Assembly: GCF_017565405.1 (NCBI RefSeq)
Contig: NZ_JAGEKR010000003.1
Location: forward strand, 124,001-188,000
DNA length: 64,000 bases
Direction of reading: 5' to 3'
Origin: Allobranchiibius sp. CTAmp26
GTDB lineage: Bacteria > Actinomycetota > Actinomycetes > Actinomycetales > Dermatophilaceae
Part shown: one piece after another, positions 52,779 through 56,724 of the stretch
Position numbering within the stretch: the first letter of the stretch is position 1
Layout of the letters: each line of letters starts with the position of its first letter
Made by a program: the position numbers and the translations under genes
Notes under the pieces: model-generated
The model's input: the letters and a program-made list of their open reading frames with translations, nothing else
What the model was told of the DNA's origin: nothing
Databases searched by the model: none

Positions 52779-53324
52779 TTACGAGGGGCGGATGCCGCGG
52801 CGGTGCAGATCGGCGTACATGAGCGCGGCCACGCTTTCGCCGTCGGTGATCTCCCCGGCCGCCACGAGCTCCAGAGCCCGCGACCACGGCACCGAGACCA
52901 TTTCGTGGATGCCCTCCTCGGCGCGGCCGCCGAGATCGCCTATCTGGGTGAGTCCTGTTGCCAGATAGACATGTTCGGGGGCACGGCAGATCCCGTTGAG
53001 CGCGTTCATTCGCCCGATGGCGGTCCACTCCCGCGCCCGTAGGCCCGTCTCCTCGCGCAGTTCCCGTTGCGCGGCTACCAGCGGCGCCTGGTCGTCGCAC
53101 GCACCGGCCGGCACCTCCAGCGAGGGTCCCGTGGTGTAGCGGGTCATGCGGACGAGCACGACCTTGTCGGCATCGTCGATCGCGATCACGAAGACCGCGG
53201 GCTGGCGCACCTGCACCACGCCGTAGATCCCGCGCTCCCCGTCGGGTCGGACGACCTGGTCCTCGCTCACCTCGATCCAGCGGTTGCGGTAGACGGTCCG
53301 CGAGGAGAGCTGCTGCCAGCTCAT
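52779..53324 (-). CDS. Nudix hydrolase with altered Nudix box
   Basis: 181-residue protein resembling ADP-ribose pyrophosphatases: VYRNRWIEVSEDQVVRPDG at the start, YTTGPSLEVPAGACDD, then AAQRELREETGLRA. The REUxEExGU core is intact, but the preceding G-x5-E glutamate is missing and the loop is one residue shorter than usual, so activity may be changed. Nucleotide-sugar or ADP-ribose cleavage is the default guess. Start ATG 53324 overlaps the crotonase stop (ATGA), indicating coupled translation. Confidence 0.82.
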   Translation of the reverse strand: MSWQQLSSRTVYRNRWIEVSEDQVVRPDGERGIYGVVQVRQPAVFVIAIDDADKVVLVRMTRYTTGPSLEVPAGACDDQAPLVAAQRELREETGLRAREWTAIGRMNALNGICRAPEHVYLATGLTQIGDLGGRAEEGIHEMVSVPWSRALELVAAGEITDGESVAALMYADLHRRGIRPS

Positions 53325-54112
53325 CGGCCCCGCGGCAGGTAGGCCGGAGTCTCGCGGGCGAACGCCGCCGTTCGGGCGATCTTGAAGTTGCGGCCGGCCA
53401 TCAACCGCACCTGCTCGATGCGTTCGCGGGCGAAGGTACGGCGGGGGCCGGCGTTCCAGCGCGTCTCGAAGAGGCGCTTCGCAGCTGCCAGCGCGTCGGG
53501 CGAGCGGGTGGCGAGCTCGCCCGCGAGGATCTGCGCCTCGGCGTACGGATCGGCGCCGACGGCTCCCACCAGCCCGATCTCGTGAGCGCGCTCGCCGGAG
53601 AAGACCTGCGCGGTCATGGTGAGCCGCTTGGCCTGCTCGATGCCGACCAGCTGGGCCAGCGAGCGGATGCCGCTCATGTCGGGGATCAGTCCCCACTTGC
53701 CCTCCAGCACCGACCATTTCGCGTCGGGAGCGGTGATGCGGAAGTCAGCACCCAGAGCGATCTGCACCCCTCCGCCGTAGCAGTGCCCGTGCACGGCCGC
53801 GATGACCGGCACCGGCAACCGGCGCCAGACCCAGCACGCCTCCTGGAAGGTGTTGGTGCCCCGCCAGGGACGTGGCACCACCGCCTTGGCCACCGCGCCG
53901 GCCTGACCGAACGCCTCGGCGAAATCCAGCCCGGCACAGAACGACTCGCCCTCGCCGGAGATCACCACGGCGCGCACGGACGTGTCCGACCGCAGCGCGT
54001 GGGCGGCGTCGATCAGGCCCTCCAGCATCGGCAGCGTCAGGGCGTTCAGCTTGTCGGGGCGGGCGAGGCGTACGTCGGCGATCCCGTCGGCGACGTTGCA
54101 GGTGACGGCCAT
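53321..54112 (-). CDS. Enoyl-CoA hydratase/isomerase (crotonase) family protein
   Basis: 263-residue crotonase-fold protein. ARPDKLNALTLPMLEGL binds the CoA end; VVISGEGESFCAGLDF supplies the first oxyanion amide; GHCYGGGVQIALGADFRI the second. In place of the hydratase glutamates the loop reads GKWGLIPDMSG, whose Asp resembles isomerase or atypical members, so hydration is not assured. Acts on acyl-CoA in the cytoplasm. Full length and in an operon with the Nudix gene. Confidence 0.88.
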   Translation of the reverse strand: MAVTCNVADGIADVRLARPDKLNALTLPMLEGLIDAAHALRSDTSVRAVVISGEGESFCAGLDFAEAFGQAGAVAKAVVPRPWRGTNTFQEACWVWRRLPVPVIAAVHGHCYGGGVQIALGADFRITAPDAKWSVLEGKWGLIPDMSGIRSLAQLVGIEQAKRLTMTAQVFSGERAHEIGLVGAVGADPYAEAQILAGELATRSPDALAAAKRLFETRWNAGPRRTFARERIEQVRLMAGRNFKIARTAAFARETPAYLPRGR

Positions 54113-54116
54113 GCCA

Positions 54117-55385
54117 TCACCCTACGGACGCGCGCGAGCCACGCCGCATACCCGGCATCTCGAAACCGGCCACCGTCACGAACGGCGACAGCATCACCAC
54201 CAGCACGCATGCCGCGAGGTCCACGTGCGCGGCCGCCAGCGCCACCGCGAGCGCCAAGACCGCGAGGCTCGCCACCAGCAGGGCGAGGTCGCCCTGCGAC
54301 GAGCCGAGGAGGTACGCCCGGATCGACCAGAGCACCACGAGGAAGACGGCCACCGGGACGGCGACGACCGCCAGCGCGGTCGTCGCGCCGACGGCACGGG
54401 TACCACCGGTGTGCTCGGCGAGCTGCGAGCCCGCCACGTGCAGCCCGGCTCCCGTGGCGGCGATCGCGGCGAAGAGCGGCACGTGACCGTAGCCGAAGAC
54501 GAACTGTCCCGCGGGACGCCCGCGCAGCCGGCCGGCCACGTCCGCAGCGAAGTAGATCCACCACATCGCGAAGGTGAGCCCGATGCCCGCGACCACGACC
54601 GCGACCGCCTGCCAGGTCCACCCGGCGACCCCCGGACGGTGCAGGGCGAGCGACGACGAAGCCACCGTCCCGACGACGGCTTCACCCAGGGTGATGATCA
54701 CGAAGAGCCCGTAGCGCTCGGCGATGTGGGCGGCGTGCCACGGGGTGACCGACCGGCGCTCCACCAGCACCGGGATCCCCACCTCGAGCAGGCCGAGCAG
54801 CACGAACACCGGCCCGGCGATGGCCCAGGGAGGCGAGAGCAGTGCGAAAACGACCCAGCACACCTGGGCCAGCACGATCAGAATGGCGTAGCGGCGTGCC
54901 TTCGAGCGCTCTGTCGCAGATTGACGGCCAGCCCTGATCCACTGCGCCACCAACGCGATTCGCATCACGACGTACCCCGCGACCACTCCCGGTCCGTGGA
55001 AGGACCCCTCACGGGTGACCGACTCGAAGAACCGCGGGATCCCCAGCGCGAGGACGACGACCCCGATCATCTGCACCATCGTCAGGATCCGGTAGAGCCA
55101 GTCGTCGGTGTCGAACGCCGAGGCGAACCACGTGAAGTTGATCCAGGCGAGCGCGGTCGCGAACATCGCCATCACGAACGCGCAGAGCCCGGTGAGCAGG
55201 TGCGCCTCATCCACGCTCGTGGCCAGGTACCCCGCGGCGTTGCCGACGGCGATCACGAAGGTGAGGTCGAAGAGCAGCTCCAGTGGCGACGACACGCGTT
55301 CGCGCTCGTCGGGGTCGCGCCCGGTCATCCGGGTGAGGGGGTGGGCGCGCGCGACCCGGACGTCGGGGGTGCTCGCCTGCGTCAT
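54117..55385 (-). CDS. Low temperature requirement A (LtrA) family membrane protein
   Basis: 422-residue membrane protein with about 12 hydrophobic segments. LtrA features: SPLELLFDLTFVIAVGNAA near the N-terminus, WINFTWFASAFDTDDWLYRI, ERYGLFVIITLGEAVVGT and FGYGHVPLFAAIAATGAGL. Named after a Listeria gene needed for growth in the cold; molecular function unknown. ATG 55385 has GACACT 6 nt upstream, so a leaderless mRNA is likely. The crotonase gene lies 4 bp downstream of its upstream neighbour's end, i.e. the LtrA stop is 4 bp from the crotonase start region on the same strand. Confidence 0.88.
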   Translation of the reverse strand: MTQASTPDVRVARAHPLTRMTGRDPDERERVSSPLELLFDLTFVIAVGNAAGYLATSVDEAHLLTGLCAFVMAMFATALAWINFTWFASAFDTDDWLYRILTMVQMIGVVVLALGIPRFFESVTREGSFHGPGVVAGYVVMRIALVAQWIRAGRQSATERSKARRYAILIVLAQVCWVVFALLSPPWAIAGPVFVLLGLLEVGIPVLVERRSVTPWHAAHIAERYGLFVIITLGEAVVGTVASSSLALHRPGVAGWTWQAVAVVVAGIGLTFAMWWIYFAADVAGRLRGRPAGQFVFGYGHVPLFAAIAATGAGLHVAGSQLAEHTGGTRAVGATTALAVVAVPVAVFLVVLWSIRAYLLGSSQGDLALLVASLAVLALAVALAAAHVDLAACVLVVMLSPFVTVAGFEMPGMRRGSRASVG

Positions 55386-55425
55386 CGCCTCAGTGTCGCA
55401 GCGGCCGGGGCGGGGGACGGTGGCT

Positions 55426-55875
55426 TCAGGTGACGATCGGTTCGGGGCGCCCGGCACGCCATACGTGTGGCGTCATCTCCGACAGGCCTGGGGAGTACGC
55501 GTGCACGGTGAGCGCCAGCTCGTCGCCGATGTTGGTCATGTTGTGCACCAGACCCGGGTTGAAACTGAACTCCTCCCCCGCGTGCAGGTCACTCTCGGCG
55601 AGCCGGCCGCCGCGCCACGTCTCCTGGGTGAGCTCGCCTCGTACGACGTGGAACGCGCCGCTGGCGCCGCCGTGGTCGTGCCATCCGGTCGTGGTGCCCG
55701 CGGGCCACACCATCAGCCAGACCTCGAGATAGGCGGTGGTGTCCAGCTCGATGCGCGTGCGTTCGGTGACGTCGGGGTCGACGCGGGTGAGCAGGTCGTC
55801 GTTACCTGCGAAGAGCCGGGTGATGCGTGACAACTGTTCGTCGCTGAACGTGCGGATGCCTAAGGAGGCGGTCAT
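55426..55875 (-). CDS. Cysteine dioxygenase
   Basis: 149-residue cupin that oxidises L-cysteine to cysteine sulfinate with O2. The iron ligands are the two His of TGWHDHGGASGAF and a third in GLVHNMTN; GAFHVVRGELTQETW is the usual following strand pair. It is shorter than eukaryotic CDO and typical of bacterial ones. ATG 55875 is preceded by GGAG 8 nt upstream. A 24-codon leader peptide containing Cys lies 68 nt upstream on the same strand, and its spacer has repeated CCGG blocks that could fold over the ribosome-binding site, suggesting control by cysteine supply. Confidence 0.9.
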   Translation of the reverse strand: MTASLGIRTFSDEQLSRITRLFAGNDDLLTRVDPDVTERTRIELDTTAYLEVWLMVWPAGTTTGWHDHGGASGAFHVVRGELTQETWRGGRLAESDLHAGEEFSFNPGLVHNMTNIGDELALTVHAYSPGLSEMTPHVWRAGRPEPIVT

Positions 55876-55943
55876 CTGGTGTCTCCGGACGGGAAGGGGG
55901 CCGGCGGTGACCGGCGGCTGACGGGCTGGGTGAACGGGTGGGT

Positions 55944-56018
55944 TCAGGCGCGACAGCGATGCCACATCGCCGGGCGCGTGGTGCGGCGCGTCGGCTGATG
56001 AATGGCGGTGTGGAACAT
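55944..56018 (-). CDS. Putative cysteine-responsive leader peptide of cysteine dioxygenase gene
   Basis: 24-codon ORF with ATG at 56018 and TGA at 55946-55944. It starts MFHTAIHQ, has a TRRTTR segment and ends WHRCRA. Arg/His-rich leader peptides with a Cys close to the end are common before sulfur-metabolism genes in actinobacteria. Its start codon coincides with the likely transcription start (promoter at 56025-56054), so it would be translated as a leaderless message. Slow reading of the UGU codon when cysteine is scarce could alter folding of the spacer before the dioxygenase gene. No protein evidence exists. Confidence 0.6.
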   Translation of the reverse strand: MFHTAIHQPTRRTTRPAMWHRCRA

Positions 56019-56024
56019 GGCTTC

Positions 56025-56054
56025 ACTACATCACGGCGGGGCTGGGAGCGACAA
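56025..56054 (-). promoter_or_regulatory. Promoter of the leader peptide-cysteine dioxygenase unit
   Basis: Minus strand TTGTCG (56054-56049), 18-bp spacer, TGTAGT (56030-56025), then 6 nt to the leader ATG. Both hexamers and spacing fit a sigma70-type promoter with the start at the A of ATG. Confidence 0.6.
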
Positions 56055-56109
56055 ATAGTTTGGCTGTGCGCTCGCTGTCTCCTCCGCGGTCGTACGACGT
56101 CCCGACCGC

Positions 56110-56724
56110 TCAGTGGGTGGGGCGCACGGGCAGCGGCTCACCGAAGCGGGTCCCGAAGGCGAGCTCCGACAGCGGTTTACGTCGACGCTCCCGCAGCTCG
56201 CGCTCGGCGGTGGAGGGATCGACCCCCGTGCGTTCGTCCACCGGCCAGGGCCGTCCGACGGCCACACCGGAGACGACCGACCACTCGTCCGGCACCTCGT
56301 AGGCAGCGGCCAGGGCGTCGTGGTCGAATCCCCCGAACTGGTGCACGCCCAGCCCCATCGACGCCGCCTGAACGCACAGGTGCGCCACGGCCTGACCGAG
56401 GTCGTAGCGCGCGTAATCGGCGAGCGCGGGCTTGTGCTCGGGGGTCGTGCGCGCCAGCGTCACGAGGACGACGCTCGCGGGCGGCAACCACCCGGAGTTG
56501 CCACGGCTGAGTGCACCCACCAGGACCCCGTGCGCCGCGTCGCCGCGTCGAGCCACCACGAACGCCCACGGTTGCGCGTTGCCGTTCGAGGGCGCCCAGC
56601 GGGCCGCCTCCAGGAGGGACGCGAGCTGATCGTCGGACAGCTCGTGCGCCGGGTCGAAGACGGAGGGCGACCGGCGCTCGCGCAGCACGTCGAGGATCAG
56701 CGGCGGGGTCGTGGGATCCGTCAT
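56110..56724 (-). CDS. Nitroreductase family protein
   Basis: 204-residue FMN-dependent oxidoreductase. ERRSPSVFDPAHELSDDQL and LLEAARWAPSNGNAQPW form the FMN-binding N-terminus (the RRSxR-like start and the APSxxNxQPW block); QAVAHLCVQAASMGLGVHQF and ELAFGTRF close the site. It could reduce nitro compounds, quinones or flavins. Start ATG 56724. It is preceded by the dienelactone hydrolase gene whose stop lies 9 bp upstream, so they may share a transcript. Confidence 0.9.
   Translation of the reverse strand: MTDPTTPPLILDVLRERRSPSVFDPAHELSDDQLASLLEAARWAPSNGNAQPWAFVVARRGDAAHGVLVGALSRGNSGWLPPASVVLVTLARTTPEHKPALADYARYDLGQAVAHLCVQAASMGLGVHQFGGFDHDALAAAYEVPDEWSVVSGVAVGRPWPVDERTGVDPSTAERELRERRRKPLSELAFGTRFGEPLPVRPTH

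Follow-up and report, generated by a model that had tools for sequence, protein, structure and literature searches.

A candidate cysteine-responsive leader-peptide attenuator ahead of a cysteine-dioxygenase-family gene in Allobranchiibius

What a short open reading frame (ORF) with a cysteine codon near its end is doing ahead of a gene for a putative cysteine-degrading enzyme, and whether it would turn that gene on when cysteine is scarce or when it is plentiful, is the question raised by a locus of Allobranchiibius sp. CTAmp26. The locus lies in the window, i.e. the whole stretch of 64,000 nucleotides that was analysed. The preliminary description of the window placed a 24-codon ORF 68 nt ahead of a dioxygenase gene; such an ORF is there, on a strand that was left unstated. 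The leader ORF, the spacer, the dioxygenase gene (here CDO) and the promoter elements all lie on the minus strand, and the range originally given (55876-56054) is bounded precisely by the -35 element and the CDO start. The genes and intervals are as follows.

56724-56110, minus strand: nitroreductase-family gene, upstream of the leader
91 nt, minus strand: gap bearing the promoter, between the nitroreductase-family gene and the leader ORF
55944..56018, minus strand: putatively leaderless leader-peptide ORF, 24 codons, MFHTAIHQPTRRTTRPAMWHRCRA plus stop, with orthologous 24-25-codon ORFs in 10 relatives
55953..55955, minus strand: Cys codon TGT, codon 22 of the leader, with a putative regulatory role
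68 nt, minus strand: spacer from the leader stop to the CDO ATG (55875)
55426..55875, minus strand: cysteine-dioxygenase-family (cupin) gene, 149 aa, PF05995 CDO_I, E 2.8e-13
54117..55385, minus strand: LtrA-family gene directly 3' of CDO, PF06772, E 5e-87

On the basis of its family score (PF05995, 50.2 against a cut-off of 23) and of its residues, the CDO product is predicted to be a cysteine dioxygenase, a fold that other thiol dioxygenases share. His66, His68, His111, His125 and Tyr127, which we take to be the iron-binding or catalytic residues by comparison with rat CDO, are invariant in five CDO orthologues. The nearest solved chains are 8qfl-8qfr and 3eqe, named cysteine dioxygenase; chains 8qfl-8qfr may represent an ergothioneine dioxygenase, but the idea that the CDO product is such an enzyme gained no support from the literature looked at. 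A search for EgtD in the window's genome gave no match, so that any ergothioneine would need to be imported. The LtrA-family gene is probably co-transcribed with CDO. The order nitroreductase, CDO, LtrA, enoyl-CoA hydratase is common to the window (53321-56724) and to Flexivirga (L013), and in three other loci (L018, L019, L023) the gene directly 3' of CDO encodes a small protein that resembles rhodanese, as judged by the start of its sequence only.

The leader ORF was followed across the family by means of a profile search, in which a five-sequence CDO alignment was run against 188 same-family genomes and gave matches in 53 of them. The 11 best CDO loci, the window's among them (E below 1e-59), all carry an ATG ORF that ends in W-H-x-C-x-x-stop, with 24 codons in eight cases and 25 in three, and are referred to here as the WHxC group. 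Examples are MFHTAIHQPMRRTARSAMWHRCRA, MHYLTATAPMRAMTRTAAWHRCRV, MSSYATTRPMRLNRRTAMWHLCRY, MSSKATYLRMRAITRPRTWHRCLV (Leekyejoonella) and MSSIATHLTRIADRRPVMWHVCRY (Flexivirga). Each of the ten closest CDO orthologues found in the family keeps a 24-25-codon ATG ORF, and the Cys codon, on whose conservation in relatives the preliminary description had itself staked its proposal, is kept in 10/10. W19, H20 and C22 are conserved in all 11 loci, as are the TGY form of the Cys codon and the TGA stop. The length of the ORF differs by 3 nt only, while that of the spacer ranges freely from 65 to 76 nt in WHxC loci, as expected for a translated ORF. Residues in the middle of the peptide, from the start to WH, are freely variable, so that the leader peptide is probably no stable product. 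In the window and throughout the WHxC group there is a single Cys codon near the end of the ORF, a run of consecutive Cys codons being absent.

The region ahead of the leader ATG is fixed in a similar way, through two elements.

56049..56054, minus strand: -35-like element TTGTCG, at -36..-31 from the leader ATG, with T at -35 in 11/11 loci and TTG in most WHxC loci
56025..56033, minus strand: extended -10-like element TGaTGTAGT, at -15..-7

Relative to the leader ATG, T-35, C-17, T-15, G-14, T-12 and T-7 are invariant across the 11 loci and their species, and the pattern TGnTnnnnT is found at the same distance (-15..-7) in 34/35 related leaders from three clades. The claim had been that a good promoter puts the transcription start on the ATG. 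A good sigma-70 consensus it is not, since a consensus promoter scan of the region found no sigma-70 promoter, the -10 sequence being TGTAGT; a start on the ATG is nevertheless credible because the promoter positions are invariant at a fixed distance across species. Sequence conservation makes credible, therefore, an extended -10 promoter from which transcription would begin on the leader ATG or beside it. None of the 35 leaders has an adenine at -11, an unusual trait in a sigma-70 -10 element.

Overlooked at first was a conserved RNA, in which hairpins of the leader enclose the Cys codon and the stop codon and are followed by a hairpin in the spacer; the same architecture appears in individual folds of leader plus spacer.

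55961..56006, minus strand: hairpin P1, codons 5-6 (GCCAC) with the Trp-His codons (GTGGCAT); GCCA/TGGC plus an inner stem (helices 2 and 3)
55917..55957, minus strand: hairpin P2, Cys-codon arm GCTG/CAGC plus an inner stop-codon helix TGAAC/GTTCA (helices 4 and 6)
55900..55915, minus strand: hairpin P3 in the spacer, GCCGGTCACCGCCGGC (helix 7, both-side changes in 4/5 pairs)

Alignment of the 11 raw sequences with MAFFT followed by RNAalifold gave 6 pairs only, as the arms were misaligned, and this was remedied by covariance-model structural alignment. A first covariance model, built from five Flexivirga sequences alone, picked up loci outside Flexivirga with E values of 7e-12 to 0.03, the window falling below threshold. 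In a structural alignment of ten sequences, 89.4% of cells pair (78.7 when shuffled, 29-43 when slid), 20 of 43 pairs have both-side changes that keep pairing (9.4 shuffled, 2-5 slid) and the covariation score is 0.287 (0.129 shuffled, at most 0.045 slid). Because this alignment was fitted to the structure, greater weight is given to the slide control and to a model, R2, which was built without the window and yet matched it at E 1.4e-11, as the sole match in its genome. R2 also matches polycysteine leaders of another clade absent from its training (best E 5.6e-9). Two extra model matches, one in G086 and a second one in G002, overlap long open frames and look like chance. A search of the leader RNA with the Rfam covariance models gave no match up to E = 1. 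By hand alignment, T gives way to C at the third position of the Cys codon where its partner in P2 goes from A to G, which preserves the pair and still encodes Cys, and a G-C pair becomes A-U in the stop-codon helix of P2. The CCGG blocks of the spacer, thought to pair near the CDO ribosome-binding site, are real; they form P3 and recur with compensatory changes, but they mainly pair with each other and are not the main mask of that site in relatives. An alternative pairing of the 3' arm of P2 with the 5' end of the leader is attractive in Flexivirga, but its motif is missing in G020 and G048, and it was rejected.

The conserved W19, H20, C22 and TGA stop, along with a catabolic target, as with tnaA, could also be accounted for by a TnaC-like arrest peptide, the WHxCR C-terminus of which would sense free cysteine in the ribosome tunnel, arrest at the stop when cysteine is high and thereby induce the enzyme. 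This is very improbable: the Trp-His codons constitute the 3' arm of P1, so that pairing in the RNA accounts for their conservation, the residues from the start to WH vary freely, and sister clades have MRCCCCA or CCRCCR in place of WHxC, which points to the counting of Cys codons.

Those sister-clade peptides belong to a wider set of leaders. CDO genes more distant in the family are preceded, in the corresponding position, by other Cys leaders, of the type MSSTTA...MRCCCCA (in Pedococcus and allied genera), MSSTAA...MCCRCCR or RHIDL, the last being a type already known. A short ORF with at least two Cys among its last 10 residues is present in 35 of 48 more distant loci (5.2 in shuffles, 2 antisense), and one with at least three in 26 of 48 (0.15 in shuffles, 0 antisense). 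In Piscicoccus, Luteipulveratus and genus g60, some of the RHIDL leaders that precede related CDO genes score high enough for the cut-off of NCBIfam model NF042934, entitled 'putative leader peptide'. The window leader and two other WHxC leaders compared with NF042934 and NF042936 gave no match, the MSSTTA leaders match no family, and the Ms4527A model, run against the window's genome, picked up no leader of its type beyond chance level. In Pedococcus-type loci (L051-L064, L066) leaders stand in tandem, about 300 to 20 nt before CDO, the leaderless polycysteine ORF (MSSTTA..MRCCCCA) being followed by a Shine-Dalgarno-led RHIDL ORF, leader 2, which in most of these loci passes the CDO start in another frame. 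The second CDO copy of the window's genome (L010, G000:C2:259922-260314) has a short ORF ending LRAECCRGD ahead of it, conserved in G002 (RAECCRRG), and the second copy in Flexivirga (L092, L094) has a further leader that looks leaderless, MQSITQRDLMRVSRPAARHCCLSA, whose ATG is preceded at 6 nt by TAACTT. GC-rich intergenic DNA often contains short ORFs, and the window leader might have been an incidental one, free of regulation; this is scarcely credible, being contradicted by the conservation, the covariation, the polycysteine enrichment and the match of R2 to the window.

How such a leader could act on CDO is suggested by its own 5' end.

55883..55886, minus strand: Shine-Dalgarno GGAG of CDO, masked in most relatives by the 5' end of the leader, weakly so in the window

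In most species a helix, P0, joins the first nine nt of the leader (AUGUCUUCG) to the CDO Shine-Dalgarno (CGGAGAC). Between the first 12 nt of the leader and the next ribosome-binding site, -9.7 to -12.0 kcal/mol were computed in 8/11 WHxC loci, while P0 is weak in the window (-4.6 kcal/mol, bulged) and in its two genus mates (-4.6 and -2.4). In the tandem clade the leader 5' end gives -9.0 to -12.1 kcal/mol against the site of leader 2 and -4.0 to -9.2 against that of CDO, the former being the stronger partner in 15/15 scored loci. The pairing is preserved in variants of P0, namely the Shine-Dalgarno sequences CGAAGGC (G048) and GAAGAC (L056, L057), and leader GUCUCC with Shine-Dalgarno GGAGAC (L066). 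It is in this weak P0 that the window departs most from the family model, and in its genus a local fold around the CDO site probably takes the place of P0. This complementarity between 5' end and Shine-Dalgarno points to control of translation, and it bears on a different proposal, in which P3, or RNA unmasked after the stop codon, would serve as a terminator, intrinsic or dependent on Rho, under the control of the leading ribosome. The conserved position and the covariation of P3, and the pyrimidines that follow it in some species, would suit transcription attenuation of this kind, but a terminator scan of the region found none and the stems have 4-6 pairs with no U-run after them, so that we regard it as quite improbable.

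The reading that is favoured, with a probability of roughly 0.6, is that 56018-55875 controls the dioxygenase gene as a leader-peptide attenuator that responds to cysteine and acts on translation. It is built on the conserved ORF, its Cys codon, the promoter geometry and the covarying RNA, all of which are observed. Transcription would start at or next to the leader AUG, where, as the conserved promoter suggests, a ribosome would initiate without a Shine-Dalgarno. With Cys-tRNA plentiful, the ribosome would pass codon 22, terminate and leave, upon which the leader RNA would refold into P1, P2 and P3 (and, in most relatives, P0 as a closing helix) and CDO translation would be low. With Cys-tRNA scarce, the ribosome would stall at codon 22 and melt P2 and the 3' side of P1, while ribosomes queued behind it would cover the leader 5' end, and the CDO site would open. 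Translation of the leader, stalling and expression at low cysteine are the parts of this model that we infer.

The sense of the switch is the most delicate of them. The gene had been expected to be on when cysteine is plentiful, a sense for which no sequence feature argues. The anatomy, where it is clear, namely in relatives whose leader 5' end pairs with the CDO ribosome-binding site, weakly predicts expression when cysteine is low, because queued ribosomes would sit on the very 5' end that does the masking; known polycysteine leaders, too, work in this way. Free-energy modelling of a stalled versus a free ribosome lends this sense weak backing, no consistent opening of the site being found across species. 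Induction of a cysteine-degrading enzyme at low cysteine is, moreover, physiologically odd unless the substrate or the role differs, which counts against the model, as do the single Cys codon of the window leader and its weak P0. The same leader could work in the opposite sense if its completion at high cysteine favoured CDO translation, for instance by preventing an inhibitory fold from closing or through re-initiation, and a stall at low cysteine shut translation off. Such behaviour would fit the metabolic logic of a catabolic enzyme and the typical cysteine dioxygenase residues (three His and the His-x-Tyr pair) that are invariant in the alignment, and the computed opening is slightly worse on stalling in three members of the window's genus. 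It is, however, unlikely: no structure was found that opens the site only after completion of the leader, a spacer of 68 nt is long for coupling, polycysteine attenuators, which are the known relatives, are on at low cysteine, and the out-of-frame leader 2 across the CDO start in most tandem-clade loci would repress CDO at high cysteine. Expression at low cysteine, if it is the correct sense, would suggest sulfur scavenging rather than cysteine disposal, and the enzyme may then serve the release of sulfur from another thiol. We put forward, tentatively, the possibility of a new kind of switch that combines RNA and peptide, a leaderless mRNA providing the anti-Shine-Dalgarno strand with its own 5' end; ribosomes queued behind a Cys stall would cover this end and expose the next gene, in the service of a thiol dioxygenase made at low cysteine for sulfur scavenging.

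Leaders of this kind are known. In M. smegmatis, leaderless ORFs with cysteine codons are reported to work through attenuation (Canestrari 2020 as cited in PMC9031893; PMC13236596). The mycobacterial polycysteine leaderless short ORFs (Canestrari 2020; Shell 2015, PMC4633059) share with the present leader an AUG that is here putatively leaderless, one or more Cys codons near the end, a sulfur-metabolism gene downstream and structure between the short ORF and the next gene's ribosome-binding site. The WHxC group differs in its single Cys codon, in its target, a cysteine-dioxygenase-family gene, in that the leaderless 5' end itself masks in most relatives, and in a four-helix leader RNA that matches no Rfam family. 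With the Cys-rich leader peptides of NF042934 (cis_reg_atten) and NF042936 (Ms4527A family) there is a link through the RHIDL leaders of related CDO genes, which reach NF042934, whereas neither model recognises the window leader or the two WHxC relatives compared. TnaC of tnaA and amino-acid attenuators such as the actinobacterial trpL and leuL resemble the window leader, as proposed here, in being short upstream ORFs whose translation sets downstream expression, and differ in the amino acid concerned, in the U-rich terminator, which the window leader does not have, and in sequence, which is unrelated. Attenuation by Cys leaders is thus known as a kind, while this form of it, which we regard as a variant of the polycysteine leaders of mycobacteria, appears to be new, and so does its target enzyme.

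Control by ribosome-sensed cysteine would, in this way, be extended from sulfur assimilation to an enzyme of the cysteine dioxygenase family, through a covarying leader RNA that lends itself to testing one base at a time. If expression at low cysteine holds true, the usual reading of this widespread actinobacterial enzyme as a means of cysteine disposal would be wrong in these bacteria; if it does not, a Cys leader would be operating in the reverse sense, so that either outcome would be informative.
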